Source: Candidatus Manganitrophaceae bacterium
Lineage (GTDB): Bacteria; Nitrospirota; Nitrospiria; SBBL01; JAADHI01
Direction: 5' to 3'
Length of the DNA: 35,527 bases
Assembly: GCA_013151935.1 (NCBI GenBank)
Contig: JAADHI010000016.1
Location: 1-35,527, forward strand
The notes beneath the pieces were generated by a model. The model worked only from the letters and a program-made list of their open reading frames with translations. It ran no database searches and was not told the DNA's origin. Made by a program: the position numbers and the translations under genes. Positions 12,996 through 35,527 of this stretch are shown here, piece after piece; within the stretch, counting starts at the first letter, position 1, and each line of letters begins with the position of its first letter.

Positions 12996-13091
12996 CCTCT
13001 TTCTTTCAAAACAAGCCTCTAAGGTGTTTCGATACCTCTATTATCGAACCTTGATCATTCCCTTAAGAGACCCGCCGTTCTGCCAATCTCC

Positions 13092-13100
13092 TGATATACT
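13092..13100 (+). promoter_or_regulatory. Extended -10 promoter of the MORN/C13 lipoprotein gene
   Basis: TGATATACT is an extended -10 element (TG, one base, TATACT at 13095-13100). No good -35 box is seen at 17 bases, as is usual for this class. The start would be near 13107, 28 bases before the ATG at 13135. Confidence 0.6.
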
Positions 13101-13134
13101 TAGAAGGAAGTATTTCCTCGGGAGGGGCTCTAAC

Positions 13135-14454
13135 ATGAAACAGAAATGGACAATAAAAACACTCTTTCCTCTGATTTTATTACCGATTTTTGCCGCGTGC
13201 TCAACGCTCAGCGGCCAGAGTTCAACACAAGAATTTTCGGTCATCCAGGGCAATGTGTGTGAAGGAAGCTGCCAAATAACCTTGATGGATGGTTCGCTCT
13301 ACGAAGGCACCTTTGAAGGCGGTATCCCGCATGGGGAAGGGACCTTGATGACAGTCAATGGCGACCGTTATGTGGGCGACTTTGCCAATGGGCTTATTCA
13401 TGGGGAAGGGGTCTACTCGTTTTCCGGAGGGGCAAAATACACAGGCGATTTTAGAGCAGGTTCATTTTATGGTTATGGCGTACTGACACGAAACAATGGG
13501 GATAAATATGTCGGCGAATTTGAAAACAACGAATTTCACGGCAAAGGGATTCTTTCATTTGTCGACTCCAAAGGCAATGTAAAAACCCTGGCAGGCGAGT
13601 GGAATTACGGTTTATTGGATGAAGATACGCAGGTGCTCAGTGAACCAAAAGATGGGGACATCGTAAATCCTGAAGTCGTGTTATTTTATCAATACCAGTT
13701 GCTCAGTGAGTCCATGGGGCATCTCGCGGCTTCAAGACCAGGGGTAACAGATCTCTACCTCTTGGCCTTTGGTGGAGACAGTCATCAAGACGTTTTTATG
13801 AATGAAGCCCTCTACACCACAGCACTCTTTGAAACAAAGTTTAGTATGCAAAATCGCACGATGTATCTTATCAATCATCCGGCAATTGTAAATGAAGTAC
13901 CGATTGCCAGCGTCACCAATTTACGTGTGGCTTTGCAGTTTATTGCCACACGGATGGATATAGAAGAAGACATCCTTTTTCTTTATCTCACCAGTCATGG
14001 CTCGAAGGAGCACACGCTCTCTGTTTCCTTAGGCGGTGTACCCCTAGGGGATTTGTCTGCAGAAACGCTTTCAGAAGTGATTGAAGAATCGGGAATTAAA
14101 TGGAAGGTCATCGCTATTTCTGCCTGTTATTCGGGGGGGTTTATTAAGCACCTCAAGGACGATTACACCATGGTCATTACCTCTGCGCGTTCGGATCGTA
14201 CTTCATTTGGTTGTAGTGATGATTCAGAAATGACTTATTTCGGACGTGCTTTTTTCCAATACGCGATGGATCAGACCCCAACCTTTGTGGATGCATTTTC
14301 AATGGCAAAAGAAATCGTGAGTGGTTGGGAAAAGGAGAGTAATTTTTTGCACTCAGAGCCGCAAATTCACCGTGCCCCCTTGCTTGAAGAAAAGCTCAAA
14401 TCCTGGCGGCGCACCGTAGATCAAAGACTTGCCGTCCATCAGACGACAGATTGA
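13135..14454 (+). CDS. Lipoprotein with MORN repeats and a C13-family cysteine protease domain
   Basis: A 439-residue predicted lipoprotein. The ATG 13135 is chosen because GGAGG lies just upstream and a signal peptide begins there (KTLFPLILLPIFAAC, lipid-modified Cys22). Residues about 45-165 hold four to five MORN repeats (YEGTFEGGIPHGEGTL, YVGDFANGLIHGEGVY, YTGDFRAGSFYGYGVL, YVGEFENNEFHGKGIL). Residues about 200-420 match the legumain/caspase-like C13 family: LYLLAFGGDSHQDVF, catalytic His288 in LTSHGSKEH and Cys331 in AISACYSGGF, then ITSARSDRTSFGCSDD. It is probably anchored in the envelope facing the periplasm or outside. Joining of MORN repeats to a caspase-fold protease suggests targeting to a membrane or another protein; the substrate is unknown. 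It has its own promoter and follows lolD. Confidence 0.9.
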   Translation: MKQKWTIKTLFPLILLPIFAACSTLSGQSSTQEFSVIQGNVCEGSCQITLMDGSLYEGTFEGGIPHGEGTLMTVNGDRYVGDFANGLIHGEGVYSFSGGAKYTGDFRAGSFYGYGVLTRNNGDKYVGEFENNEFHGKGILSFVDSKGNVKTLAGEWNYGLLDEDTQVLSEPKDGDIVNPEVVLFYQYQLLSESMGHLAASRPGVTDLYLLAFGGDSHQDVFMNEALYTTALFETKFSMQNRTMYLINHPAIVNEVPIASVTNLRVALQFIATRMDIEEDILFLYLTSHGSKEHTLSVSLGGVPLGDLSAETLSEVIEESGIKWKVIAISACYSGGFIKHLKDDYTMVITSARSDRTSFGCSDDSEMTYFGRAFFQYAMDQTPTFVDAFSMAKEIVSGWEKESNFLHSEPQIHRAPLLEEKLKSWRRTVDQRLAVHQTTD

Positions 14455-18342: not shown

Positions 18343-20523
18343 ATGCTGTTTGGACGTACACACAAAAATGAAATTCATTTGCCGGTTAAGCCAGTAGACA
18401 AGTGGGTTTATACCACCTGCGGTTATTGTTCTACGGGTTGCTCGCTTGAGGTGGGAGTGAACGCCGCAGGCAAGGCCGTGACAGCACGGGGTGTTGAGGA
18501 TGCGGCTGTAAATCGTGGCAAGCTGTGTCTAAAAGGGATTTATGAGTATGAAGTTTTTGAGTCTCAAAACCGCGGAACCGTTCCGCTCATTCGGAAAAAT
18601 CATAAAAATGCTTTTGAAGAAAAATCCTGGGATGAGGCTTTAGACCAAACAGCAGCAGAAATCAGTCGGATTCAAGCCGTTTATGGTCGTGATAGTTTTG
18701 CAATCGTTTCAACCGGCCAGATCTACACCGAAGAGTTTTATACCTTAGGTAAACTCGTACGCGGTGTCATTCGCACCAATAATTATGACGGCAATACCAC
18801 GCTCTGTATGGCGTCTGCCGTTTCCGGTTACAAACGCTCTTTTGGCAGTGACGGCCCCCCCGGCTGTTACGACGATTTTGAACACACCAACTGTCTTTTT
18901 GCCATTGGCTCCAACCTGCCGGAGCAACATCCCATTATCTATTACCGTCTGCAAGAAGCACGGACACGTCGTCCTTTTCCCATGATTGTGGTTGATCCAC
19001 GTGTCACCATGCTAGCCCAGATGGCGGATATCCACTTGCCCATCACGCCCGGAACCGACTTGGTGCTTTTGAATGCCATGGCCCATGTCATTCTCAAAGA
19101 AGGTCTACAAGATGAGGACTATATTCGTTTGCACACCAATGGTTTTGAAGGATTTAAAAAGCTTGTAAACGAATACAGCCCCGAAAAAGCCGAAGGGATT
19201 TGTGGCATCGCAGCAGACATGATCCGTAAGGTGGCGCGTATCTATGCCGAAGCCAATGCGGCCATGACGATTTGGACAATGGGCATCAACCAGTCCACCC
19301 ATGGCTCCGATGGTGTTGTCGCGATCAATAACCTCAATTTGATCACGGGCAATATCGGAAAACCGGGCGGCACCGCCCTTTCGATTACGGGACAATGTAA
19401 TGCCATGGGGACCCGTGAATTTTCGTCCTGTTCTGGCTTGCCGGCTTATCGCACTTTGGAAAATGAGGCTGATCGAGCCTTTGCCGCAGATTTTTGGGGA
19501 GTCGATACCCGTCATTTTCCCGATAAACGGGGTCTGACTGAAACCGATATCTTTCCGGCAATTGAACGCGGTGAAATCAAGGGCCTCTGGCTTATTGGCA
19601 CCAACCCCATGACCTCTATGCCCAATACGCCACAAATCCGTAAGATACTGGATCAACTCGAATGTCTTGTGGTTCAGGATGCCTACACCGATGTAGAAAC
19701 GGTTCAATCCGCAACAATTTATCTTCCCGCCGCACTTTGGGGAGAAAAAACGGGGGTCTTCACTAATACCGAGCGTCGTGTAAATCTGGTACGAAAAGTG
19801 GTTGCCCCGCCGGGAAAAGCCAAATCGGATCTTTGGATTTTCACCCACTTAGCCAAACGCTTTGATCGCGCAAAAGAGATAAAATTCGCCGAAACCGCGG
19901 CCGAAGTTTTTGATGAGATTCGTGAAATTTCTAAAGGCCGACTTTGTGATTATTCCGGGATGACACATGAAAAAATTGAAGCGGCACGAGGGATTCAATG
20001 GCCCTGCAACACCGACAACGAAGCGGGCAGTGCCAGGCTTTATACCGACGGCCATTTCCAATATCCGGATGGCAAAGCAAAACTGATTGCCTTGCCATTT
20101 GTGGACAACAACGAAGTCCCTTGTCAGGAATATCCTTTTTGGCTCAATTCGGGGCGGGTCGTAGAACATTGGCATACACGCACCAAAACCGGAAAAATTG
20201 GCAATCTCAATAAATTTAGTCCAACCCCTTTTATGGAAATGAATCCACGCATGGCCGCTAAAATGGGGATTGCTGCGATGGATTATGTTCGGGTGATCTC
20301 GCGTCGTTCTTCGGCAATTGTCCTGGTGCAATTGACTGAACGTGTCGCAGAAGATGCCGTTTTTATCCCGATGCACTATTATAATTGTGTCAACCGATTG
20401 GTCAAAGGTCTCTTGGACCCCTACTCCAGACAACCCGCCTATAAACAGTCTGCTGTCCGTATTGAATGTTTGATGGATCAGGACGAAGCCGCCAAAACGG
20501 CTGCAAGCTTACGCGATTATTAA
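18343..20523 (+). CDS. nasC: Assimilatory-type nitrate reductase, molybdopterin catalytic subunit
   Basis: Reduces nitrate to nitrite at a molybdenum bis-MGD centre. In the 726-residue protein Cys26, Cys29, Cys33 and Cys62 (CGYCSTGC, KLCLKG) bind a [4Fe-4S] cluster, and Cys155 in TLCMASAVSGYKRSFGSDGPPGCYDD is the predicted Mo ligand, as in Nas/Nap enzymes. Further typical segments are VDPRVTMLAQMADIHLPITPGTD, TGNIGKPGGTALSITGQCNAMGTREFS and SGRVVEHWHTRTKTG. There is no Tat signal peptide, so it is cytoplasmic, and the extra C-terminal [2Fe-2S] domain of Klebsiella-type NasA is lacking. It is the first gene of the sigma-54 operon, 7 bases before the ferredoxin-anchor gene, its likely electron donor. 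A related formate dehydrogenase or other oxidoreductase is unlikely given nirBD downstream. Confidence 0.9.
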   Translation: MLFGRTHKNEIHLPVKPVDKWVYTTCGYCSTGCSLEVGVNAAGKAVTARGVEDAAVNRGKLCLKGIYEYEVFESQNRGTVPLIRKNHKNAFEEKSWDEALDQTAAEISRIQAVYGRDSFAIVSTGQIYTEEFYTLGKLVRGVIRTNNYDGNTTLCMASAVSGYKRSFGSDGPPGCYDDFEHTNCLFAIGSNLPEQHPIIYYRLQEARTRRPFPMIVVDPRVTMLAQMADIHLPITPGTDLVLLNAMAHVILKEGLQDEDYIRLHTNGFEGFKKLVNEYSPEKAEGICGIAADMIRKVARIYAEANAAMTIWTMGINQSTHGSDGVVAINNLNLITGNIGKPGGTALSITGQCNAMGTREFSSCSGLPAYRTLENEADRAFAADFWGVDTRHFPDKRGLTETDIFPAIERGEIKGLWLIGTNPMTSMPNTPQIRKILDQLECLVVQDAYTDVETVQSATIYLPAALWGEKTGVFTNTERRVNLVRKVVAPPGKAKSDLWIFTHLAKRFDRAKEIKFAETAAEVFDEIREISKGRLCDYSGMTHEKIEAARGIQWPCNTDNEAGSARLYTDGHFQYPDGKAKLIALPFVDNNEVPCQEYPFWLNSGRVVEHWHTRTKTGKIGNLNKFSPTPFMEMNPRMAAKMGIAAMDYVRVISRRSSAIVLVQLTERVAEDAVFIPMHYYNCVNRLVKGLLDPYSRQPAYKQSAVRIECLMDQDEAAKTAASLRDY

Positions 20524-20530
20524 GGACATC

Positions 20531-22393
20531 ATGTCAAACCCGATATCATCTAATACAGAAAACCCTCAACTCAGCCAACACGGGACAAACATCGTGCTCG
20601 GAGAAAGCTATCCGCACTTAATGGACGCCCCCCTTGAAATCAATGGGCATTCCTGTGGTGCTTCTGAAGTACCGAACCTCAATCGCTTCAAACAACATGG
20701 CTTCCATTTTAATGCCGATAATTGTATCGCCTGTCATGCCTGTGAGTCGGCTTGTTCGGAAAAAAATGACTTACCTCCCCACATGGCTTATCGCTACGTT
20801 GGCAGTATTGAAGGCGGAGAATATCCCGATGTCACGCGGATCAATATTTCTATGGCTTGCAACCATTGTGAAGACCCCGTCTGTCTCAAGGGTTGTCCAA
20901 CACGAGCCTACACAAAATATTTAGAATATGGGGCGGTACTACAAGATCCTGAAATTTGTTTTGGTTGTGGATATTGTACTTGGGTGTGTCCCTATAACGC
21001 CCCTCAGTTGGATCCAGAAAAGGGGCAGGTCCAAAAATGTAATATGTGTGTGGATCGACTTGAGGTCGGCTTGCAGCCTGCTTGTGTAGATGCCTGTTTG
21101 AGTAATGCCTTGGACTTTGGGGTGATTGACGAAATCCCACTCAAACAGCAAGAGGCCAAACTCTCAATCCCTTCTTTTACAGACCCCAGTATCTCACGAC
21201 CCAATATTCGTTTTCAGTTGAATCAGCCTTTGCCCACGTCCTTTCAACGCATGGACGACGTGCCCATGACTTACGACCAGGTCGACGCTCAAAAACAGAC
21301 TGAAACACCAAATCCCTCCGCTCAGTCTGCGTTTAAAATCAAAGAGAAAAAACCGCAGACTTCGAGTGACTGGTCTTGGCACAAACTGAGATCCCGGGAA
21401 GATCCCTTGGTGTTTTTTACGCTTGTTTCCCAGTTTGCGGTCGGCGCATTTTTAATGCTTTTTTTGCTGCCAAAGTGGAGTCCCTTTTCGGAAACACTCT
21501 TTTTGTCTCAGGAGAACGCAACGGTCTTGGCCGGCACCCTTTTTCTCATTGTGGGATTACAGTCCTTTGCCTTGCTCTTATCGACCTTACATTTGGGAAA
21601 ACCACAATATTTTTACCGGGCGATGAATAACCTGCGTCATTCCTGGGTGAGTCGTGAGATTGCCACGATGGGGGCTTTTTATGGCCTGATCGTGGTCTAT
21701 AGCCTTGTCACGATTTTTCCCGTTTTAGTCTCATGGCTCCCTCTGCAACTGGCAAGCCTTCTTCCAACCTTTCTGGGCCTGGGGGCCTCTGTTTTAGGAC
21801 CACTGGGACTCTATTGCATGTACCGCTGTTATCGGATTCCGGCCCGTCCATTCTGGGATCATTGGCATTCCGGAGGGGCTTTTTTTTCCTCGGGGCTTAT
21901 CTTAGGCAGTAGCGTCATGGGTGTTATTTTTGGTCTGACCGGATTGGCCTCAGCACAGGAAATCGCCCCCGTTTTGCGTTTATTTGCAATTTTTTCTCTC
22001 TTTGGGTTGATTTTACAGCAGGTCGCCCAAACACAGCATTTGCGTTATTTGCTAGAGAGAGGAGAAGAAGCCTCGGTTTCCCGGATGCAATTGAAAACTG
22101 TTTTTAGGAAGATAGACACCGCGCGCACATGGAGCTTACGTTTACTCATAGGTGCAGCGATATTTTTTGTTTTATTTCCGCCTGCGGGTGCACTGGGCAT
22201 GACCGCGTGGAGTGCTATTTTTATCATCACTGTGGCCCATGAAGTCGTTGGTCGGGCACTTTTTTATGTGCTCGTGGTGCCAACGACGGTGCCGAGAGGA
22301 TTTTTCTGGGGCAATCAGACCTTTGAGTCACTTGCACGAAAAAGTGGTTTGGCTGAAAAACCTCAGGTCGGCGTCTTGTCCGATAAACACTGA
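20531..22393 (+). CDS. Fusion of four-cluster ferredoxin (DmsB-like) and DmsC-like quinol-oxidising membrane anchor
   Basis: A 620-residue electron-transfer protein. Residues about 60-195 form a DmsB/NrfC-type domain with four cysteine groups starting at Cys65 (CIACHACESAC), Cys110 (CNHCEDPVCLKGC), Cys143 (CFGCGYCTWVC) and Cys170 (CNMCVDRLEVGLQPACVDAC), enough for four [4Fe-4S] clusters. A Pro/Gln-rich linker (about 210-280) leads to a DmsC-type domain with about eight membrane segments (about 285-600), including STLHLGKPQYFYRAMNNLRHSWVSREIATMG, typical of DmsC. There is no signal peptide, so the clusters face the cytoplasm beside the nitrate reductase. Inference: it takes electrons from quinol and gives them to the catalytic subunit encoded 7 bases upstream. 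DmsB and DmsC are normally separate polypeptides. Confidence 0.9.
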   Translation: MSNPISSNTENPQLSQHGTNIVLGESYPHLMDAPLEINGHSCGASEVPNLNRFKQHGFHFNADNCIACHACESACSEKNDLPPHMAYRYVGSIEGGEYPDVTRINISMACNHCEDPVCLKGCPTRAYTKYLEYGAVLQDPEICFGCGYCTWVCPYNAPQLDPEKGQVQKCNMCVDRLEVGLQPACVDACLSNALDFGVIDEIPLKQQEAKLSIPSFTDPSISRPNIRFQLNQPLPTSFQRMDDVPMTYDQVDAQKQTETPNPSAQSAFKIKEKKPQTSSDWSWHKLRSREDPLVFFTLVSQFAVGAFLMLFLLPKWSPFSETLFLSQENATVLAGTLFLIVGLQSFALLLSTLHLGKPQYFYRAMNNLRHSWVSREIATMGAFYGLIVVYSLVTIFPVLVSWLPLQLASLLPTFLGLGASVLGPLGLYCMYRCYRIPARPFWDHWHSGGAFFSSGLILGSSVMGVIFGLTGLASAQEIAPVLRLFAIFSLFGLILQQVAQTQHLRYLLERGEEASVSRMQLKTVFRKIDTARTWSLRLLIGAAIFFVLFPPAGALGMTAWSAIFIITVAHEVVGRALFYVLVVPTTVPRGFFWGNQTFESLARKSGLAEKPQVGVLSDKH

Positions 22394-22419
22394 CATCGTT
22401 CAACAGAGGAGGACTCACA

Positions 22420-22761
22420 ATGCGTAAAGAAATTCGAATCAATTTAGGGCCGCTTGAAGGTATCCCGATGGGGCAGGGACACTGTTTCCGAATTGAGGGA
22501 GAAGATATTGCGGTCTTTCGTACACGGAATGGTGAGATTTTTGCGGTTGAAAATACCTGCCCACACATGAAAGGCCCCTTGGCCGAAGGTATTATCGGAG
22601 ACGGCAAGGTGGTTTGTCCTTTGCACGGACATCGTTTTGATCTTAAAACGGGTGAAGGCAGCGAGGCTTCGGAATGTGTCCGCTCGTTTGAGATGTCGAT
22701 TGAAAATGGAAATGTTTTTATTGCCTATGTACCTGCATCCGAAGAAAATGTCCCTTGTTGA
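22420..22761 (+). CDS. nirD: Rieske-type nitrite reductase small subunit
   Basis: Small subunit of the NAD(P)H nitrite reductase, or an associated Rieske ferredoxin. The 113 residues form one Rieske domain: CPH at Cys47/His49 and CPLHGH at Cys66/His69 bind a [2Fe-2S] cluster. NirD proteins of some enterobacteria lack these ligands; this one keeps them, so it is redox-active. RIEGEDIAVFRTRNGEIFAVENTCPHMKGPLAEG is typical of the NirD/Rieske group. The ATG has AGGAGG about 8 bases upstream. It lies between the ferredoxin-anchor gene (26 bases) and nirB (52 bases). Confidence 0.92.
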   Translation: MRKEIRINLGPLEGIPMGQGHCFRIEGEDIAVFRTRNGEIFAVENTCPHMKGPLAEGIIGDGKVVCPLHGHRFDLKTGEGSEASECVRSFEMSIENGNVFIAYVPASEENVPC

Positions 22762-22813
22762 TTTTTGAAAGCTTTAGGCCTGACTGTGATTGAACTTTCA
22801 TAAGGAGAGTTGT

Positions 22814-25312
22814 GTGAAAAAAAGATTGGTGGTTGTCGGAAACGGGATGGCGGGTGCGCGCATGGTAGAGGAAATCCTCAAACGTAAACGCGATATTTAC
22901 GAAATCGTGATGTTTGGTGCAGAGCCTTACGGAAATTACAATCGTATTTTGCTCAGCAATGTGCTGAATCAAAGCCAAGCGCCCGACGAAATATTTTTGA
23001 ATCCACTCGACTGGTATATTGAAAACAAAATTACCCTGCATACAGGGGTAAAAGTGACCCACATCGACCGAAAAGAAAAAAAGGTGTATGCCCTAAAACT
23101 TGCTGAAGGAGATGTGCCCTACACAACGGGGATTCCTGAAGAGGCCGACACAGATTTTATCTCGGTTCCTTATGATGAGGTGATTATTGCGACCGGGGCT
23201 CGCCCCTTTGTGCCACGGATCAAGGGTAGCGATTTTCCCGGGACCTTTTTATTTCGCACAATTGACGATTGCGATCTGATTGCGGAGTATGCAAAAAATT
23301 GCGAGAAGGCGGTTGTGATTGGTGGCGGACTTCTGGGGCTTGAGGCCGCACGTGGCTTGATGACACATGATTTAGAAGTTTCAGTTGTTGAAGCCGCAGA
23401 TCAGTTGATGCCTTCGCAATTGGATACCGAAGCGGGCAGAATTTTAGAACGGGCGATGGGCGCCATGGGCTTACGTGTACTAACAAAAACCATGACCTCT
23501 CAAATTGTGCAAAAAAGAGGGAAGGTCTCTCGTGTTGTTTTTAGTGATGGGGGTGTTTTAGATACCGACTTGGTTGTCATCAGTGCGGGCATCGTGCCGA
23601 TCACTGAAGTGGCACAAAGGAGCGGACTCAAGGTGAATCACGGCATTTTGTGTGATGATCAAATGCGTACCAATGATCCTGATATCTATGCCGTGGGTGA
23701 ATGTGTTGAACACAGGGGAGTGACCTACGGTTTGGTCGATCCCATCTGGCAACAGGTCAATGTGCTGGCGGATGTGCTGTGTGGCGTGAATATCGATGCC
23801 GTCTATACGGGGTCCATAACAGGAACGAAATTAAAAGTCATGGGCGTTGATTTGGCCTCGATGGGTGAAAAAGAGACGGAAGATATCGACGATGAGATTT
23901 TGATCTATCGGGATCCAAACCGAGGGATTTATAAAAAACTGATTGTACGGAACAATAAAATTCATGGGGCCATCTTATTGGGCGATGTCGATCTTAGTGA
24001 TGGGCTCATGCAACTTTTCATGAATGAAAAGACCCTGCCCGAAAACCGTGCCGAAATTTTATTTGGTGCTGTAGAGGGGACCAGTTTATTTGATGCCTCA
24101 GATTTGCCCAATTCTGCACAAATTTGCAACTGCAACGGGGTCTGCAAAGGGGACATTATTGCAGCCATTGAAAATAAAAACTGTAGCAGTGTGGCCGCAA
24201 TTGGCACAGAAACAAAGGCGGGGCAGGGCTGCGGTTCTTGTCGCGGCGCGATTGCCCAAATCATCTCTTCTGTGGTCGGCGAAGTCGCATATGACGCCAG
24301 CGAACACTATTATGTGCCAGGGGTTCCGCTTGAAAAATCACAGTTGGTCCGAGAAATTCGTTCGCAAAAATTAAAATCGGTGAGTAAGGTTTTGGCCATT
24401 TTGGGAGAGGGGATGGAAGATCCCACGACAAAAACGGGTTTGGCTTCCCTTTTGAAAACACTCTGGCCCAAGATGTATGAAGATCAGCGAGACGCGCGTT
24501 TTATCAATGACCGTGTGCATGCCAATATCCAAAAAGATGGCACCTTCTCCGTCATTCCACGTATTGTTGCAGGGGTAACAACACCTGAAGCATTGCTTCG
24601 TATTGCACAAGCCGCCGTCAAATATAAGGCCAAAATGATAAAGTTCACAGGCGGGCAGCGCATCGATTTATTGGGGATTAAAAAAGAAGACTTGCCGGCG
24701 ATTTGGAAGGATATCGGCCTGCCCAGTGGTCATGGCTATACCAAGGCGTTTCGCACAGTAAAAAGCTGTGTGGGTACAGATTTTTGTCGTTTTGGTCTGG
24801 GCAATTCGATCTCACTGGCAGAGCAGGTTGAGCTGAGATTCCAAGGCATTGAAGCCCCCCATAAAGTGAAAATGGCAGTGACAGGCTGTCCCAGGAATTG
24901 TGCAGAAGCTTATGTGAAAGATATCGGTGTTGTGGCCATTGAAGGCGGAAAGTGGGAAATTTATATCGGTGGCGCTGCGGGGGCGACGATTCGCAAAGGA
25001 GATTTACTCTGCACCGTGGGTAGCCACGAAGACGTGCTCAAATATACCAGCCGTTTTTTTGAATATTACCGAGAACACGCCAAGTATCTGGAGAGGACTT
25101 ATGGTTTTGTCGAACGCATTGGCATTGACCTCTTAAAGGGGATTCTAATCGACGATTCTTTGGGAATTTGTGCGAACCTTGAAGAAAAAATGCAGGAAGC
25201 CGTTGATGCCTATCAAGACCCTTGGAAGGAAGCGGAAGATCCGGTCTACCCTTTCCAGTTTGAAGGACCCAAGTTAATTGAAGTCCTTGAAAAAGCAGAA
25301 AATAACGGGTAA
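22814..25312 (+). CDS. nirB: NAD(P)H-dependent nitrite reductase large subunit
   Basis: Reduces nitrite to ammonium in the cytoplasm. The GTG at 22814 (832 residues) is chosen because AAGGAG lies 6 bases upstream and the FAD motif VVVGNGMAGARMVEEIL follows directly. Domains in order: FAD/NAD(P)-binding oxidoreductase (about 1-400, second nucleotide motif AVVIGGGLLGLEAARGL); BFD-like [2Fe-2S] domain with Cys438, Cys440, Cys473 and Cys476; nitrite/sulfite reductase half-domains with the sirohaem-[4Fe-4S] ligands Cys652, Cys658, Cys692 and Cys696 (CVGTDFC, CPRNC). Length and order are those of normal NirB. It completes the nitrate-to-ammonium route with the upstream genes. No nitrate transporter gene is in the operon. 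Confidence 0.97.
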   Translation: MKKRLVVVGNGMAGARMVEEILKRKRDIYEIVMFGAEPYGNYNRILLSNVLNQSQAPDEIFLNPLDWYIENKITLHTGVKVTHIDRKEKKVYALKLAEGDVPYTTGIPEEADTDFISVPYDEVIIATGARPFVPRIKGSDFPGTFLFRTIDDCDLIAEYAKNCEKAVVIGGGLLGLEAARGLMTHDLEVSVVEAADQLMPSQLDTEAGRILERAMGAMGLRVLTKTMTSQIVQKRGKVSRVVFSDGGVLDTDLVVISAGIVPITEVAQRSGLKVNHGILCDDQMRTNDPDIYAVGECVEHRGVTYGLVDPIWQQVNVLADVLCGVNIDAVYTGSITGTKLKVMGVDLASMGEKETEDIDDEILIYRDPNRGIYKKLIVRNNKIHGAILLGDVDLSDGLMQLFMNEKTLPENRAEILFGAVEGTSLFDASDLPNSAQICNCNGVCKGDIIAAIENKNCSSVAAIGTETKAGQGCGSCRGAIAQIISSVVGEVAYDASEHYYVPGVPLEKSQLVREIRSQKLKSVSKVLAILGEGMEDPTTKTGLASLLKTLWPKMYEDQRDARFINDRVHANIQKDGTFSVIPRIVAGVTTPEALLRIAQAAVKYKAKMIKFTGGQRIDLLGIKKEDLPAIWKDIGLPSGHGYTKAFRTVKSCVGTDFCRFGLGNSISLAEQVELRFQGIEAPHKVKMAVTGCPRNCAEAYVKDIGVVAIEGGKWEIYIGGAAGATIRKGDLLCTVGSHEDVLKYTSRFFEYYREHAKYLERTYGFVERIGIDLLKGILIDDSLGICANLEEKMQEAVDAYQDPWKEAEDPVYPFQFEGPKLIEVLEKAENNG

Positions 25313-25335
25313 TTTTTGTGCCGCGAAGCTAAAAA

Positions 25336-25713
25336 ATGGCAAAACGCTATCTGGTAAATTTAGCCCAATTGATCGAACGCACAGGTCTCGTTGATCACTA
25401 CGACATCAAATTTGAGTGCAAACACTTTTTCAGTGGGGCTGCGCTGTATGTGGATGAGCGCATCTGTCTTTCCTTGACTCCTTTGGGCCTGGCTCTAAAA
25501 CTACCAGAAAAAACACGAGCAAATTTGTTTGAAAACAAAACAGCCATCCCTCTGAGATATTTCCCAAAAGGCCCCATTAAAAAGGATTATGTGCTTTTTC
25601 AAAATGACCTTAAAACAACTGAGCACATATTTTATCCCTATATGCTAGAAAGCGTCCGTTACGTGCTCGGCTTGCCAAACACAAAAAAAGGAAATAGTGT
25701 TGTGCCAAAATAA
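25336..25713 (+). CDS. TfoX N-terminal domain-like protein
   Basis: A 125-residue soluble protein that resembles the TfoX N-terminal domain: FFSGAALYVDERICLSLTPLGLALKLPEKTRANLFEN, then LRYFPKGPIKKDYVLF. The TfoX name comes from competence regulation, but stand-alone TfoX-N proteins are widespread and mostly uncharacterised, so no competence role is claimed. It begins 23 bases after nirB and may be carried on the nitrate operon transcript as its last gene. The ribosome-binding site is weak. The spacer to the next promoter is A/T-rich, with no clear terminator. Confidence 0.75.
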   Translation: MAKRYLVNLAQLIERTGLVDHYDIKFECKHFFSGAALYVDERICLSLTPLGLALKLPEKTRANLFENKTAIPLRYFPKGPIKKDYVLFQNDLKTTEHIFYPYMLESVRYVLGLPNTKKGNSVVPK

Positions 25714-29976: not shown

Positions 29977-31347
29977 CTATGACAAGAGTGCTGCCGGGAC
30001 CGCAGACTGAATATCACACACGCTCGTTTCAGCAGAACGTTTTTCAAGGACATAAGCCGGCAAACGACTCAAACAGGCATCCATTTCATCCACAAGCGCA
30101 AGATAGCGTGTCCCTTCCACATTCACAAAATATGCTTCAAAACGGGCCTGGGATAAACCTTCTGGAAGCGCTGAAATATCGGGAAAAAACTGCGTTTCGG
30201 CTTCATTTTCCGAAAGACGGCGCTGAATCAATCCCGCCATTTTGGGATCCGTTGCCACTTCGGCAAAACGCACGCCCGCGCGATCTGCCGCAAGATCGGC
30301 AAAACTAAAGCCACTGCCACCTCTTCGCGCATCATACAGCTCTTTAAATTCTCCAATCGAATGGCTGATCCCACTTTTGGCTGCAATCTCAAGTGCCGCA
30401 GAAATAATGAAATGTAACCTCAAATCGCGACGTCCCGCAAGTCCCACACCTTTTGTGAGACGTTCATGTGCCAACATTTCCGTTGTGCGCACCGTGCCAA
30501 TCATTTGCTCGACCCGCCAGGATCCGAAATAAATACCCAAGGCCAGAATGGCCGAACGATTTTCATCTGCCGCATCCTCACCCGTTTGGGAGGCAATTTT
30601 GAACAAACGAGAGATATAATAAGCCAGTGAAAGAGCCTCATCACGCGGGGCATATTCAGAAAGTGCCATGATACGACGATAATAAACCCGAACCCCTGCC
30701 GGATCCCCCATGGGACGTACCTCATCCCGAACCACCCGAATCCGACCTCTCATTTGTTGCACCAGTTGATTCATTCTTGGGATCGGCTTCAAATCCACAT
30801 CAATACGTTTATCTGTCAGACGGACAGATTTCACCGCATCCAAAAGATAATCTCCTTCGCCCTGACCAAAAATGAGATCAAGCCCCAAACGCATTAAAAA
30901 ACGGGCAGTCGTATCCGACAAAGAGATCGTCCCCAACTTTGCCTGAGCAATATGAAAGCCCTGCGCTGAAGGGCTCAGGATCAGCTCAACATTGATATAA
31001 TTTCCAAACGGATTTTGAGGGAGCCGAAAAGTTCCCGACAATTCAAGCCCCTGCGCTGAAATGACCGCGCGCCCCCGGGCACGGCGCACAGAGCGATGGG
31101 CAATTGAAAAAGCACCGTTTAATTCGTCCTCTGTCGCCGAGATCAAAATAGGGCGATCATTTTCCTGCAAGAACTGCTGGAGCACTTGCTTGGCAAAGGC
31201 ACGCGTCTTTACGGCATTGTCGGTATTCATCACCTCGACATCAGAAACCATCGGAACACGCTCAAGGACAAGGAAAACAAAGAAAATTGGAAAAATAAAA
31301 AAAAGCGTCAATAAACCCCAGAAGAAAACACGCTTCAAATACTTCAT
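29977..31347 (-). CDS. Membrane-anchored protein of unknown function
   Basis: A 456-residue protein that I do not recognise. The ATG 31347 is preferred over upstream in-frame starts because it overlaps the TGA of the cytochrome c gene (ATGA, 31344-31347). One N-terminal membrane segment (about residues 8-33, RVFFWGLLTLFFIFPIFFVFLVL) anchors a large, probably periplasmic region. Residues about 60-200 look beta-rich (ISAQGLELSGTFRLPQNPFGNYINVELILSPSAQGFHIAQAKLGTISL), somewhat like lipid- or polymer-binding domains. Residues about 235-420 are mainly helical and include FADLAADRAGVRFAEVATD. No catalytic motif is evident. Tight linkage to a cytochrome c and a CRP-like gene is the only functional hint. 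Confidence 0.85.
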   Translation of the reverse strand: MKYLKRVFFWGLLTLFFIFPIFFVFLVLERVPMVSDVEVMNTDNAVKTRAFAKQVLQQFLQENDRPILISATEDELNGAFSIAHRSVRRARGRAVISAQGLELSGTFRLPQNPFGNYINVELILSPSAQGFHIAQAKLGTISLSDTTARFLMRLGLDLIFGQGEGDYLLDAVKSVRLTDKRIDVDLKPIPRMNQLVQQMRGRIRVVRDEVRPMGDPAGVRVYYRRIMALSEYAPRDEALSLAYYISRLFKIASQTGEDAADENRSAILALGIYFGSWRVEQMIGTVRTTEMLAHERLTKGVGLAGRRDLRLHFIISAALEIAAKSGISHSIGEFKELYDARRGGSGFSFADLAADRAGVRFAEVATDPKMAGLIQRRLSENEAETQFFPDISALPEGLSQARFEAYFVNVEGTRYLALVDEMDACLSRLPAYVLEKRSAETSVCDIQSAVPAALLS

Positions 31348-31709
31348 TTTACTGACCTCAATACTGAAACCAGTTGCAGCCAATCAATGATGAGTTTGAT
31401 GTCTTTTTCTGAGAAAACACGCTGATACGCAGGCATTCCGTCGCCCCGCCCGAAAGTCACCGCAGAATAGAACTTAAAATAGGAAATAGATCGTCCATCT
31501 GTTGCCAGAGCAGGGGCATGGATAGACCCTTCTCCCAGCCAGCCGTGACAGCCGTGACAGTTAATATCCATTCGGACTTTGCCCTGATAAAGCTGCCCAC
31601 CACGATGCCCTGGCAATGGCGTTTCTTTTGTTTGACAGCCCCCACTTAAAAGCAAAAAACAAGTGCAAAAAAAGAAACCAATTGAACGACGCATCATGCT
31701 TACTTTCAT
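31344..31709 (-). CDS. Class I cytochrome c, predicted lipoprotein
   Basis: A 121-residue monohaem cytochrome c. A signal peptide with lipobox-like LLLSGGC (Cys25) suggests membrane attachment in the periplasm. CHGCH (in DINCHGCHGWLGEG) binds haem, and Met in GDGMPAYQ is the likely sixth ligand. The start is uncertain: ATG codons occur at 31709, 31697 and 31694, none with a strong ribosome-binding site. Its TGA overlaps the start of the unknown membrane protein, and the CRP-like gene follows, so the three form one unit. It could carry electrons to a terminal reductase or oxidase not present in the window. Confidence 0.9.
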   Translation of the reverse strand: MKVSMMRRSIGFFFCTCFLLLSGGCQTKETPLPGHRGGQLYQGKVRMDINCHGCHGWLGEGSIHAPALATDGRSISYFKFYSAVTFGRGDGMPAYQRVFSEKDIKLIIDWLQLVSVLRSVK

Positions 31710-31870: not shown

Positions 31871-32683
31871 ATGATTCATATCGTTGTGGCATTGATCCAT
31901 GAAGCCTTAACCCTCATCACCCACTACAAGATGAAAACCCTGAGGGGAAAACATCCCTTCATCATTTACAAGAGTGGGGAAATCACACTCATCGTATCGG
32001 GCATCGGAAAATCTTCAGCCGCCGCAGCCGTCGGCTATTTGCAAGCCTTAAACCGAGAAAATGGCCCAAGTGCCTGGCTGAATATTGGGATTGCAGGACA
32101 CCAACAGCTTCCAATCGGGCAGGGCTTCATCGCCCACCGCATACAAGATCGGGCCAATGGACGAACCTATTATCCGCCGCAGGTACTGCCCTTTTCCCTG
32201 CCCTCCAACAATTTAATCACCGTGGATTGTGTCGAAAAAGACTACAGAGAAAACAGTGCTTACGACATGGAAGCTGCGGCGTATTACAGTGCTGCGATAC
32301 GCAGCAGCACGGCAGAATTTGTTCAATCCTATAAAGTCGTTTCCGATAATCCGCAAGCACCTGTGACAAAAATAACAAAAACTTTTGTAAATACACTGAT
32401 TGAAAACCGAATACATGAAATTAAAAACCTCATTGCAACACTTCGCTCAGCAATCAAGCCCTACCGGGAAATTCACGCACCGCACCCTCAGTTTGACACG
32501 CTGATACAGCGTTGGCATTTTACCGAAACACAAAAGGTACAACTCAAACAATTGTTACAACGAACACAAGTCCTTTTTGGAAACCCCTTGCCATGCCAGG
32601 CGCAAACCACAAACCATACAAGTGCAAAAACATTTCTAAAAACACTTTCAGACACACTTGTCACACATCGACTAAGTTTCTAA
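31871..32683 (+). CDS. Phosphorylase-superfamily protein, MTAN-like nucleosidase
   Basis: A 270-residue protein whose first 200 residues match the purine nucleoside phosphorylase/nucleosidase superfamily, most like MTA/SAH nucleosidase. Glu11 in VALIHEALTLI, the SGIGKSSAAAAVGYL segment, GIAGH, Glu134 in YDMEAAAYY and Asp159 in KVVSDNPQ line up with the three acid/base residues of E. coli MTAN (Glu12, Glu174, Asp197). The protein is shorter in the middle. A C-terminal extension of about 70 residues (EIHAPHPQFDTLIQRWHFTETQKVQLKQLLQRT) is not part of the family. It starts the cluster with the radical SAM gene four bases downstream. Inference: it may cleave 5'-deoxyadenosine released by that enzyme, or a nucleoside product. 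Confidence 0.82.
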   Translation: MIHIVVALIHEALTLITHYKMKTLRGKHPFIIYKSGEITLIVSGIGKSSAAAAVGYLQALNRENGPSAWLNIGIAGHQQLPIGQGFIAHRIQDRANGRTYYPPQVLPFSLPSNNLITVDCVEKDYRENSAYDMEAAAYYSAAIRSSTAEFVQSYKVVSDNPQAPVTKITKTFVNTLIENRIHEIKNLIATLRSAIKPYREIHAPHPQFDTLIQRWHFTETQKVQLKQLLQRTQVLFGNPLPCQAQTTNHTSAKTFLKTLSDTLVTHRLSF

Positions 32684-32687
32684 GACC

Positions 32688-33701
32688 ATGCCTGCATTTT
32701 CAGCACTTTATATTGAAAACCAATGCCGTCACCTGCCACGGGTGCAAGATATATTAAAAAAATGTGAAGCACTTCCCCATATTTCATGTGAACGTTACGG
32801 AGAAGTCTTTAATCCAAAAGCCCAAAATTTTCGTTTGCAAAAAAAACGACCGGCTTTGGTGCTCGCAAAAAAACACCAGCATTTTGTTTTACCGGCCCCG
32901 GCGGGTTATGGTTTTGGCAATAAAAACAGCTACTACTTTTCTCACCTACTCAACTGTCCCTACGATTGTCGTTATTGTTTTTTACAAGGCATGTATCGCT
33001 CGGCCCACTATGTGCTTTTTGTAAACTACGAAGACTTTGGAAAGAAAATTTCTGAAACAATCGAAAAATGCGGTCATGAGCCGTCTTATTTTTATGCAGG
33101 CTACGACAGCGATAGCTTGGCCTTGGAACAATATAGCCAATTCGCCGACTATTTTCTGCCCTTTTTTAAAAACGTCCCACAAGCGACACTTGAACTGAGA
33201 ACAAAAAGCGCCCAAATCCGCAGCCTGCTCAAACACAAGGCCACAAAAAACGTCATCATCGCGCTCAGCTTCTCACCTGATCAGGTCTCAAAACAATTGG
33301 AGCACCGTGTCCCCACGTTCTCAAAGCGCATCGCCGCCGCAAAAAAATTGCAGGAAGCCGGCTGGTCACTGGCACTGCGTTTTGAGCCCTTGATTTATCA
33401 CAAAGATTATAAAACGGATTATCAAGACTTATTTCAGCGTATTTTTAGCATATTGGACGCCAGCAAGCTCCACAGCGTAAGTACCGGATTATTTCGAATG
33501 CCTCAGACTTTTTTTCGGAATATTGTTAAGCTCTACCCTGACGAAGCCCTTTTTGCAGGCCACTATGATACACAGCAAGGCCTTAGTACCTATGCAAAAG
33601 AAATAGAGACTGAAATGCTTAAACATTGCGAAACCGCTCTTTTTGATTACATCCCAAAAGAAATTTATTATCGTTGTGGCACAGGCTGCGAAACGACATG
33701 A
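32688..33701 (+). CDS. Spore photoproduct lyase (SPL)-family radical SAM protein
   Basis: A 337-residue radical SAM enzyme. CPYDCRYC (Cys90, Cys94, Cys97) is the CxxxCxxC site for the SAM-binding [4Fe-4S] cluster. Around it, ALYIENQCRHLPRVQDIL at the N-terminus, CFLQGMYRSAHYVLFVNYEDF, and KRIAAAKKLQEAGWSLALRFEPLIYH follow the layout of SplB. In SplB a cysteine (Cys141 in Bacillus subtilis, in the SCTSD segment) donates hydrogen in thymine-dimer repair; the matching segment here reads AGYDSD with Tyr139 in its place. The bacterium shows no sign of spore formation. The substrate is therefore probably different. It is coupled to the SDR gene by an ATGA overlap (33698-33701). Confidence 0.88.
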   Translation: MPAFSALYIENQCRHLPRVQDILKKCEALPHISCERYGEVFNPKAQNFRLQKKRPALVLAKKHQHFVLPAPAGYGFGNKNSYYFSHLLNCPYDCRYCFLQGMYRSAHYVLFVNYEDFGKKISETIEKCGHEPSYFYAGYDSDSLALEQYSQFADYFLPFFKNVPQATLELRTKSAQIRSLLKHKATKNVIIALSFSPDQVSKQLEHRVPTFSKRIAAAKKLQEAGWSLALRFEPLIYHKDYKTDYQDLFQRIFSILDASKLHSVSTGLFRMPQTFFRNIVKLYPDEALFAGHYDTQQGLSTYAKEIETEMLKHCETALFDYIPKEIYYRCGTGCETT

Positions 33702-34411
33702 AACGCAGCATCCTTGTCACAGGTGCATCTTCCGGCATCGGGCTTGAAACCACACGAAAATTACTTTCGGAGGGACATCATGTCATCGGCATTGCCCGAG
33801 GTTTCGACCGTGTAAAAATTGGAAACCCGAATTTTAACCCTGTATCACTCGATCTCTCCCAACTTGCAACACTTCCACAAGCCTTCTCCAAAATTTGCCG
33901 GGAGCATCCTGAAATCAGCGCACTTATCGCCTGTGCTGGGCAAGGCCGTTTTGGCATGCTTGAAACCTTTTCTTTTGAGCAAATCAAAAACCTGATGGAT
34001 CTCAACTTTATGAGTCATGCCTATCTCGTAAAAACCCTCATGCCTCAACTCAAACAATTAGAACACTCAGATCTCATCTTTATTGGGTCGGAAGCCGCAT
34101 TGGAAGGCGGTCAACAAGGGACGATTTATTGTGCGAGCAAGTTTGCACTCAGAGGCTTTGCCCAATCTCTACGAAAAGAGGGTGCAAAATCGGGTGTGCG
34201 TGTCACAATGATCAATCCGGGCATGGTCAAGACCCCTTTTTTTGAGAGACTCCATTTTAAACCCGGCCCAGCAGACGAAAATTACATCGAAGCACGCGAC
34301 GTCGCACAAACCATTTTATCCGTACTAAAAATGCGCCCGGAAACCGTCATCGACGAAATTAACCTCAGTCCTTTGAAAAAAGTCATTGCCCGTAAAACAA
34401 AAGAAAAATAA
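33698..34411 (+). CDS. Short-chain dehydrogenase/reductase
   Basis: A 237-residue classical SDR. The ATG 33698 overlaps the stop of the radical SAM gene and directly precedes the Rossmann motif TGASSGIG (residues 8-15). ACAGQGR is the NNAG-like segment, and Ser131, Tyr144 and Lys148 (GSEAA, YCASK) form the catalytic triad. The Arg following the coenzyme region (GIARGFDRVK) suggests NADP(H) preference, which is uncertain. The substrate is unknown. Tight coupling to the radical SAM gene implies that they act in one pathway or process. Confidence 0.93.
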   Translation: MKRSILVTGASSGIGLETTRKLLSEGHHVIGIARGFDRVKIGNPNFNPVSLDLSQLATLPQAFSKICREHPEISALIACAGQGRFGMLETFSFEQIKNLMDLNFMSHAYLVKTLMPQLKQLEHSDLIFIGSEAALEGGQQGTIYCASKFALRGFAQSLRKEGAKSGVRVTMINPGMVKTPFFERLHFKPGPADENYIEARDVAQTILSVLKMRPETVIDEINLSPLKKVIARKTKEK

Positions 34412-34475: not shown

Positions 34476-35527
34476 ATGATAATGGACTGGACAAAAGAAA
34501 AACTCGTTACAGAGATAGAAGCACTCGCACAAATTGCGGCACAGCCCGATGGTCGGGAGGTTGATGCAACTTTTTTTCGACGGATTGAAGGCTTGCGCGA
34601 AATCTATCGTGGCACACCGGAGCTTTTTGACCCACCCTTAGTCAAATGGATACGTAGGCTCGCTGAAGTCAAACCGCTTCGTGAAACACCCAAAGCGGTC
34701 CTGGAAACCATTTTTGGTTACGACAGTTTTCGTGCCGGACAAGAAGAACTCATCGCAGCCGTGCTTGCCGGGCACGATGCCGTCGGCATCATGCCGACGG
34801 GGGCAGGGAAATCACTGACGTATCAGATCCCGGCCAAAATCCTCCCTGGCACCACATTGGTCATCTCCCCTTTGATTTCGCTCATGAAAGACCAGGTCGA
34901 TGCCTTAACAGAATTTGGCATGGAAGCCACCTTTATCAACTCAAGCCTGGATGCTGATGAGCGTCGCAGCCGGACAGCACGACTCATCTCCGGTCAATAT
35001 AGCTTGGTCTACATCGCCCCTGAAGGATTAGATGGCAACCTCTTTGACCTGCTTTCCCGTGCAAAAATCAATCTCATTGCCATCGACGAGGCCCATTGTA
35101 TCAGTCAGTGGGGACACGATTTCCGCCCAGCCTATCGCAATCTTTCTAACCTGAAAACCCATTTTGGTCACGTGCCTGTTTTGGCCCTGACCGCCACGGC
35201 GACCGACAAAGTCGCCGACGACATCGCACAACAAATGAGCATGCTCAGGCCCTTTCGCTACCGAGGTTCTTTTTTCCGACACAACCTGCATCTACATGCT
35301 TACAAAAAAGGAAATGGCCGGCATACAAAACAAGACATCCTTCACTTGGTGCAATCCAGAAAAGGACAGTCAGGGATCATTTATTGTCTCAGCCGAAAAG
35401 GAGTCGAGCAGACGGCCACTTATTTAGCCAAAAATGGCGTGGGTGTCATGTGCTATCACGCGGGCATGCCCCACGAACGACGCGATGAAGCCCAGGAAAT
35501 GTTTCGACGCGACGAAGTCGATGTCAT
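34476..35527 (+). CDS. recQ: RecQ-family ATP-dependent DNA helicase (3' end outside window)
   Basis: The reading frame runs open to the window edge (350 codons seen). Motif 0 (FGYDSFRAGQEELI), motif I (MPTGAGKSLTYQIP), motif Ia (LVISPLISLMKDQVDAL), motif II with the RecQ aromatic loop (IDEAHCISQWGHDFRPAY), motif III (LALTATAT), motif IV (GIIYCLSRKGVEQ) and motif V region (CYHAGMPHERRDEAQEMF) are all present. Unusually, about 78 residues precede motif 0, where typical RecQ has about 10-20. This extension is predicted helical (KEKLVTEIEALAQIAAQPDGREVDATFF). The start could be ATG 34476 or ATG 34482. It lies 64 bases after the SDR gene in the same direction. Confidence 0.95.
   Translation, partial: MIMDWTKEKLVTEIEALAQIAAQPDGREVDATFFRRIEGLREIYRGTPELFDPPLVKWIRRLAEVKPLRETPKAVLETIFGYDSFRAGQEELIAAVLAGHDAVGIMPTGAGKSLTYQIPAKILPGTTLVISPLISLMKDQVDALTEFGMEATFINSSLDADERRSRTARLISGQYSLVYIAPEGLDGNLFDLLSRAKINLIAIDEAHCISQWGHDFRPAYRNLSNLKTHFGHVPVLALTATATDKVADDIAQQMSMLRPFRYRGSFFRHNLHLHAYKKGNGRHTKQDILHLVQSRKGQSGIIYCLSRKGVEQTATYLAKNGVGVMCYHAGMPHERRDEAQEMFRRDEVDV

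Follow-up and report, generated by a model that had tools for sequence, protein, structure and literature searches.

The window, that is, the whole 35,527-nucleotide stretch of DNA analysed here, belongs to a genome of 2.5 Mb, the closest named relatives being metagenome-assembled genomes of Nitrospirota, and it carries near its end three closely packed genes (Table 1) for a nucleosidase (NUC), a radical SAM protein resembling spore photoproduct lyase (SPL) and a short-chain dehydrogenase/reductase (SDR). A gap of 4 bases (32684-32687) separates NUC from SPL and a 4-base overlap, ATGA (33698-33701), joins SPL to SDR, exactly as the earlier note on this DNA had placed them. That note also put recQ behind the cluster and suggested a functional link; the gene (TIGR00614, 319.6 bits) does start 64 bases past the SDR stop and runs beyond the window, but the association is not conserved, recQ being found near SPL in just two genomes of one genus, the window genome and a congener, and RecQ was rejected as a partner. 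In the congener, a 518-aa protein with no Pfam match is encoded between SPL and recQ, at the SDR's place (L017:7129-8685).

Table 1. Genes of the cluster, the neighbouring recQ, and residues assigned within NUC and the SPL-like protein
Feature	Position	Strand	Basis
NUC, MTAN/futalosine-hydrolase-like nucleosidase, 270 aa	31871..32683	+	PF01048 24.9 bits, predicted fold, conserved family
SPL-like radical SAM protein, 337 aa	32688..33701	+	PF20903 77.9 bits, above cut-off; structure TM 0.82-0.84
SDR, classical short-chain dehydrogenase/reductase, 237 aa	33698..34411	+	PF00106 (adh_short) 141.5 bits; alignment
recQ, incomplete at window end, neighbour only	34476..35525	+	near SPL gene only within genus
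NUC Glu11, equivalent of E. coli MTAN catalytic Glu12	31901..31903	+	invariant in alignment with E. coli mtn
NUC Met133-Glu134, equivalent of E. coli MTAN Met173-Glu174 (ribose binding)	32267..32272	+	alignment
NUC Asp159, equivalent of E. coli MTAN Asp197 (adenine protonation)	32345..32347	+	alignment
SPL-like CX3CX2C, C90/C94/C97, for [4Fe-4S] cluster	32955..32978	+	kept in 81/81 family members
SPL-like Tyr139, at SPL catalytic cysteine position (Bs C141 / Gt C140)	33102..33104	+	Tyr 81/81

Other parts of the window hold arrangements of separate interest. The genes next to NUC (29977-31709), for a 468-aa protein that fits no family clearly and for a small c-type cytochrome, are kept as a block within the genus, a single bacterial protein joins a Peptidase C13 (legumain-like) domain to MORN repeats (13024-14454), and a row of genes (18343-25713) encodes a molybdopterin oxidoreductase, an iron-sulfur plus DmsC-type anchor protein and a nitrite/sulfite reductase family protein.

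The predicted structure of the SPL-like protein (pLDDT 85.5) matches spore photoproduct lyase structures over its whole length at TM 0.82-0.84; PFL-activase, MqnE and lipoyl synthase follow at a wide distance, MqnE being among the first non-SPL matches. Its scores of 95.7 bits for TIGR04070 (cut-off 400) and 61.1 for TIGR03886 (cut-off 437.55) fall short of both models. With SplB (TIGR04070 / PF20903) it shares the fold, the CX3CX2C motif, Lys173, Ser194 and the first member of the tyrosine pair (Y97 and Y99 in Bs), kept as Tyr96, these three residues being invariant in 81 SPL-like relatives. The second tyrosine is replaced by Phe98 in all 81, and Tyr139 stands where B. velezensis SplB has a cysteine, whereas in SPL this cysteine is the H-atom donor and the tyrosines have roles in the radical chain (PMC5368176). 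Judged from these replacements, the known SPL radical relay cannot run as in Bacillus, which makes spore-photoproduct repair by this protein unlikely, and true SPL repair was disfavoured as a candidate. The loss of the cysteine is by itself no proof of a new reaction, since the SPL of Clostridium acetobutylicum uses a cysteine at a different site (PMC5368176), and an alternative H donor is possible. Two residues past Tyr139, in the same loop, 69 of 81 relatives have a cysteine (Ser in the window, Gly or Ala elsewhere), and near the C-terminus almost all members of the SPL-like clade and almost all distant SPLs have Cys330. A further difference from SplB is that the SPL-like genes accompany NUC, SDR and a GT2 glycosyltransferase and are hosted by Gammaproteobacteria and Nitrospirota, neither of which, to our knowledge, forms spores. 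When 38 SPL proteins were placed in a tree, the window's family came out as a clade (100/99) inside Gammaproteobacteria, a placement consistent with a single transfer of SPL into this Nitrospirota family, and the Fusobacterium and fecal contig proteins form a separate branch.

The nucleosidase is a divergent member of its superfamily. Its PNP_UDP_1 match lies slightly under the cut-off when NUC is searched alone and amounts to 26.3 bits with in-frame neighbours in a whole-genome search, and the fold predicted for it (pLDDT 90.6) agrees with those of MTA/SAH nucleosidases, MTA phosphorylase and futalosine hydrolase. Futalosine hydrolase is also its best NCBIfam model, weakly so, at 23.5 bits against a cut-off of 124.7; for MTAN the score is 17.2 against 169, and NUC stays far short of every curated nucleosidase threshold. 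The equivalents of Glu12, Glu174 and Asp197, the established catalytic residues of E. coli MTAN, are invariant across the NUC family in the alignment with E. coli mtn, and the glycine motifs are shared as well. From these three residues and the predicted fold, nucleosidase activity is probable, and the earlier suggestion that the enzyme could act on 5'-deoxyadenosine or on a product of the radical SAM protein agrees with the retention of the MTAN residues. NUC differs from MTAN and futalosine hydrolase in a shortened core, with about 36 residues missing at MTAN positions ~110-150, including part of the 5' pocket, in a C-terminal extension of about 70 residues, and in being fused in some lineages to SPL, or to GT2 in the case of a divergent relative. 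The NUCs of genomes with distant SPLs lack the extension, their matches stopping near profile position 191-205, and the extension may contact the close type of SPL. The window genome also encodes an ordinary MTA phosphorylase, and NUC is not its sole enzyme of the superfamily.

In the SDR, the Gly-rich nucleotide-binding motif and YxxxK are intact, with G9, G13, G15, S131, Y144 and K148 invariant in the alignment. A DSDD motif is preserved in the GT2, whose C-terminal part is conserved and particular to it; its nearest matches are polysaccharide and other GT2 enzymes, with scores under all curated cut-offs.

The nucleosidase, SPL-like and SDR genes recur together across many genomes, and more widely than the earlier note had seen. 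Adjacency was counted by hand in the best 80 of 357 SPL relatives from a pattern search of GTDB genomes, a sample in which close relatives are over-represented and which is mostly Gammaproteobacteria, Methylococcales being prominent. Among these best 80, SDR lies directly downstream of SPL in 73 and NUC directly upstream in 24, and in about 18 of the loci, one of them in a Nitrospirota genome, a GT2 gene lies directly upstream of NUC. The neighbourhood thus recurs in dozens of genomes, beyond chance. The GT2 of the window genome is encoded on a separate contig (G000:C50:4974-5798; 62% identity to the GT2 of the Nitrospirota relative) and was therefore out of the earlier note's sight.

This observation is further strengthened by co-occurrence in 229 Gammaproteobacteria genomes, the same set being used for SPL, NUC, GT2, SDR and HpnH. 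An SPL-like protein is present in 37 of them (30 close, 7 distant); NUC and GT2 each occur in 33 of these 37 and in none of the 192 genomes without SPL, a distribution with a hypergeometric probability of 9e-36 for NUC or GT2 (33/33 within the SPL set), which ignores phylogeny and serves as a guide only. The negative control HpnH (29/229 genomes) is shared with SPL in 5 of the 37 against 4.7 expected, and hopanoid synthesis was rejected as the setting on this count. SDR was found in 23 of the 37 genomes and in 0/192 without SPL; the SDR family is absent from the other 14, so that this enzyme is system-specific rather than universal, as is expected where another reductase can substitute for the step. 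All seven SPL-bearing genomes of the window's family encode NUC, which adjoins SPL in just three, and six of the seven encode GT2, while one genome of the family without SPL (G006) lacks both NUC and GT2. Likewise, the Methylococcales without NUC beside SPL encode it elsewhere in the genome in 14/14 tested. Methylomonas sp. LW13 encodes SPL, NUC and SDR, and no GT2 was detected in it. As a separate observation, of the four SPL-bearing genomes that lack GT2, three (G058, G137, G269) carry HpnH, against 2 of 33 with GT2, an excess that is probably due to lineage but could mean a replaced step.

NUC is also joined physically to two different partners. Fusobacterium vincentii encodes a single 623-aa protein (NUC at residues 2-272, SPL at 299-622) followed by SDR (L274:5107-7907, NZ_CP084075.1, a record labelled plasmid yet 2.1 Mb long), and the fecal contig MT835770.1 carries NUC, SPL and SDR in series; no close GT2 match was found in Fusobacterium at E 1e-30. 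Among the Nitrospirota and Gammaproteobacteria that carry distant SPLs, GT2 has a nucleosidase-like domain (PNP_UDP_1 E 9e-9) fused at its N-terminus; this domain matches the NUC profile weakly, as a divergent relative, and two of the four SPL-bearing genomes seemingly without NUC (G146, G274) carry this kind of fusion. The near-perfect co-occurrence of the families in the 229 genomes, together with the NUC-SPL fusion, upholds the earlier proposal that the three enzymes form a functional set, and the co-functioning of NUC, SPL, SDR and GT2 is strongly supported.

Several variant loci were encountered. One Nitrospirota locus with a distant SPL (L296) has an aldo/keto reductase gene after SPL and no adjoining SDR. 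At this and related Nitrospirota loci (L296:2187-6633, L295, L297, L298, L299), a protein of 323-329 aa is encoded beside SPL and the nucleosidase-GT2 fusion is often present; the 323-aa protein looks ParB/Srx-like from a DGRKR motif, with no Pfam match, and was not found near SPL loci of the window type. In two related Gammaproteobacteria, a tRNA dihydrouridine synthase gene overlaps SPL at the SDR's place (L267:4908-5870, L269:4445-5401). None of the four proteins matched a PADLOC family when anti-phage defence was considered, and for a viral origin no relative was confirmed in IMG/VR; the two 'phage' records that contain relatives, MT835514.1 and MT835770.1, are unverified fecal scaffolds that may be bacterial DNA.

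Taken together, the gene set suggests a small metabolic route not yet described. A literature search of partial coverage found no published account of the NUC-SPL-SDR-GT2 set, and the pathway appears undescribed in the literature searched. We tentatively favour, with rather less than even confidence, a dedicated four-enzyme pathway to which the cluster genes contribute, and we infer in which order its steps occur, that the radical is added rather than abstracting hydrogen, and what SDR and GT2 do. In this pathway, the SPL-like enzyme would cleave SAM at its [4Fe-4S] cluster and couple the 5'-deoxyadenosyl radical to an acceptor. NUC would then hydrolyse the N-glycosidic bond of the resulting 5'-substituted adenosine to give adenine and a ribosyl product whose anomeric carbonyl is free; this carbonyl would be reduced by SDR, or by a different NAD(P)H reductase in genomes lacking SDR, before GT2 attaches a sugar to the reduced product. 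The aldo/keto reductase gene in the SDR-less variant fits the carbonyl-reduction step, and the lack of a close GT2 in Fusobacterium and of SDR in 14/37 genomes indicates that the later steps are not universal. Counting against the proposal, we know of no SPL that adds an adenosyl group, NUC scores far under the curated nucleosidase models, and hopanoid genes show no association with the set.

The strongest competitor, though a somewhat unlikely one, is that the SPL-like enzyme takes a hydrogen atom from its substrate, a glycoside or something else (as in diol dehydration to a ketone), with SDR reducing the product, GT2 making the glycoside substrate and NUC clearing 5'-deoxyadenosine. H abstraction is the reaction of SPL and thus the ancestral one here (PMC5368176), 5'-deoxyadenosine is a known inhibitor of radical SAM enzymes (PMC8102628), the NUC-SPL fusion would set removal beside production, and AprD4/AprD3 offers a known pair of a radical SAM enzyme and an NADPH-dependent reductase (PMC5461906). 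The last system resembles ours in this partnership with an NAD(P)H reductase but employs a different radical SAM family. What speaks against mere clearance is that the window genome holds a separate MTA phosphorylase, that NUC has diverged from ordinary MTAN and its 5' region is remodelled, and that a NUC-like domain is fused to GT2 too, beyond the radical enzyme. A nucleosidase fused both to the radical enzyme and to the glycosyltransferase is more easily explained by an in-line step than by clearance of a by-product, and the separate MTA phosphorylase likewise favours an in-line role. For AprD4/AprD3, no nucleosidase partner is known to us.

The nucleic-acid repair or modification pathway suggested in the earlier note does not hold up well. 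Action of the SPL-like enzyme on a modified DNA or RNA base such as dihydrouridine, with NUC and SDR as helpers, is improbable; it can draw on the SPL homology, on the tRNA dihydrouridine synthase gene overlapping SPL in two related genomes and on recQ downstream in the window and one congener, but recQ and dus adjoin SPL in particular lineages only, none of the recurrent partners is a nucleic-acid gene, the regular fourth member is the GT2 glycosyltransferase, and the donor cysteine and second tyrosine are Tyr and Phe in 81/81. Biosynthesis of a small molecule or lipid agrees better with the data than nucleic-acid repair does. That the four genes are merely a horizontally moved block without a shared pathway is very improbable: the nesting of the Nitrospirota SPL clade inside Gammaproteobacteria is consistent with horizontal transfer, but co-inheritance persists with the genes dispersed over different contigs, and NUC occurs in fusions with two distinct partners.

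The favoured adduct pathway has counterparts among known systems. In the futalosine menaquinone route, the radical SAM enzyme MqnE makes an adenosine derivative on which the MTAN-family hydrolase MqnB then acts. This pairing of enzyme types is the same as ours, with MqnE an early non-SPL structural match and futalosine hydrolase the best model for NUC, although neither the SPL-like protein nor NUC belongs to the corresponding family. In bacteriohopanepolyol synthesis, HpnH adds the 5'-deoxyadenosyl radical and HpnG then removes adenine; an as yet unassigned enzyme turns ribosylhopane into BHT, and HpnI carries out glycosylation (PMC12583986). The HpnH-HpnG-reductase-HpnI series thus has the same elements, namely a radical SAM enzyme, phosphorylase-type adenine removal, conversion of the ribosyl product and a glycosyltransferase, and this match of enzyme types to bacteriohopanetetrol glycoside synthesis favours an in-line role of NUC on an adenosyl adduct. 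HpnH, however, belongs to another radical SAM family, is not SPL-like and does not co-occur with SPL.

Extending this comparison, it is possible, though doubtful, that an SPL-fold enzyme has turned to adenosyl transfer, its product being depurinated, reduced and glycosylated to a ribose-derived glycoconjugate (a lipid, cofactor or cell-surface compound) in Gammaproteobacteria and Nitrospirota, with a simpler NUC-SPL-SDR form in Fusobacteria and, probably, in gut bacteria. Distant SPL-like proteins are at present labelled 'spore photoproduct lyase family', a name that implies DNA repair. A large SPL-like subfamily in which two known radical-chain residues are missing now has defined partners, making its function testable, and if the adduct model is true, these enzymes would add to the hopanoid and menaquinone routes a further example in which adenosyl is transferred and adenine is then removed.
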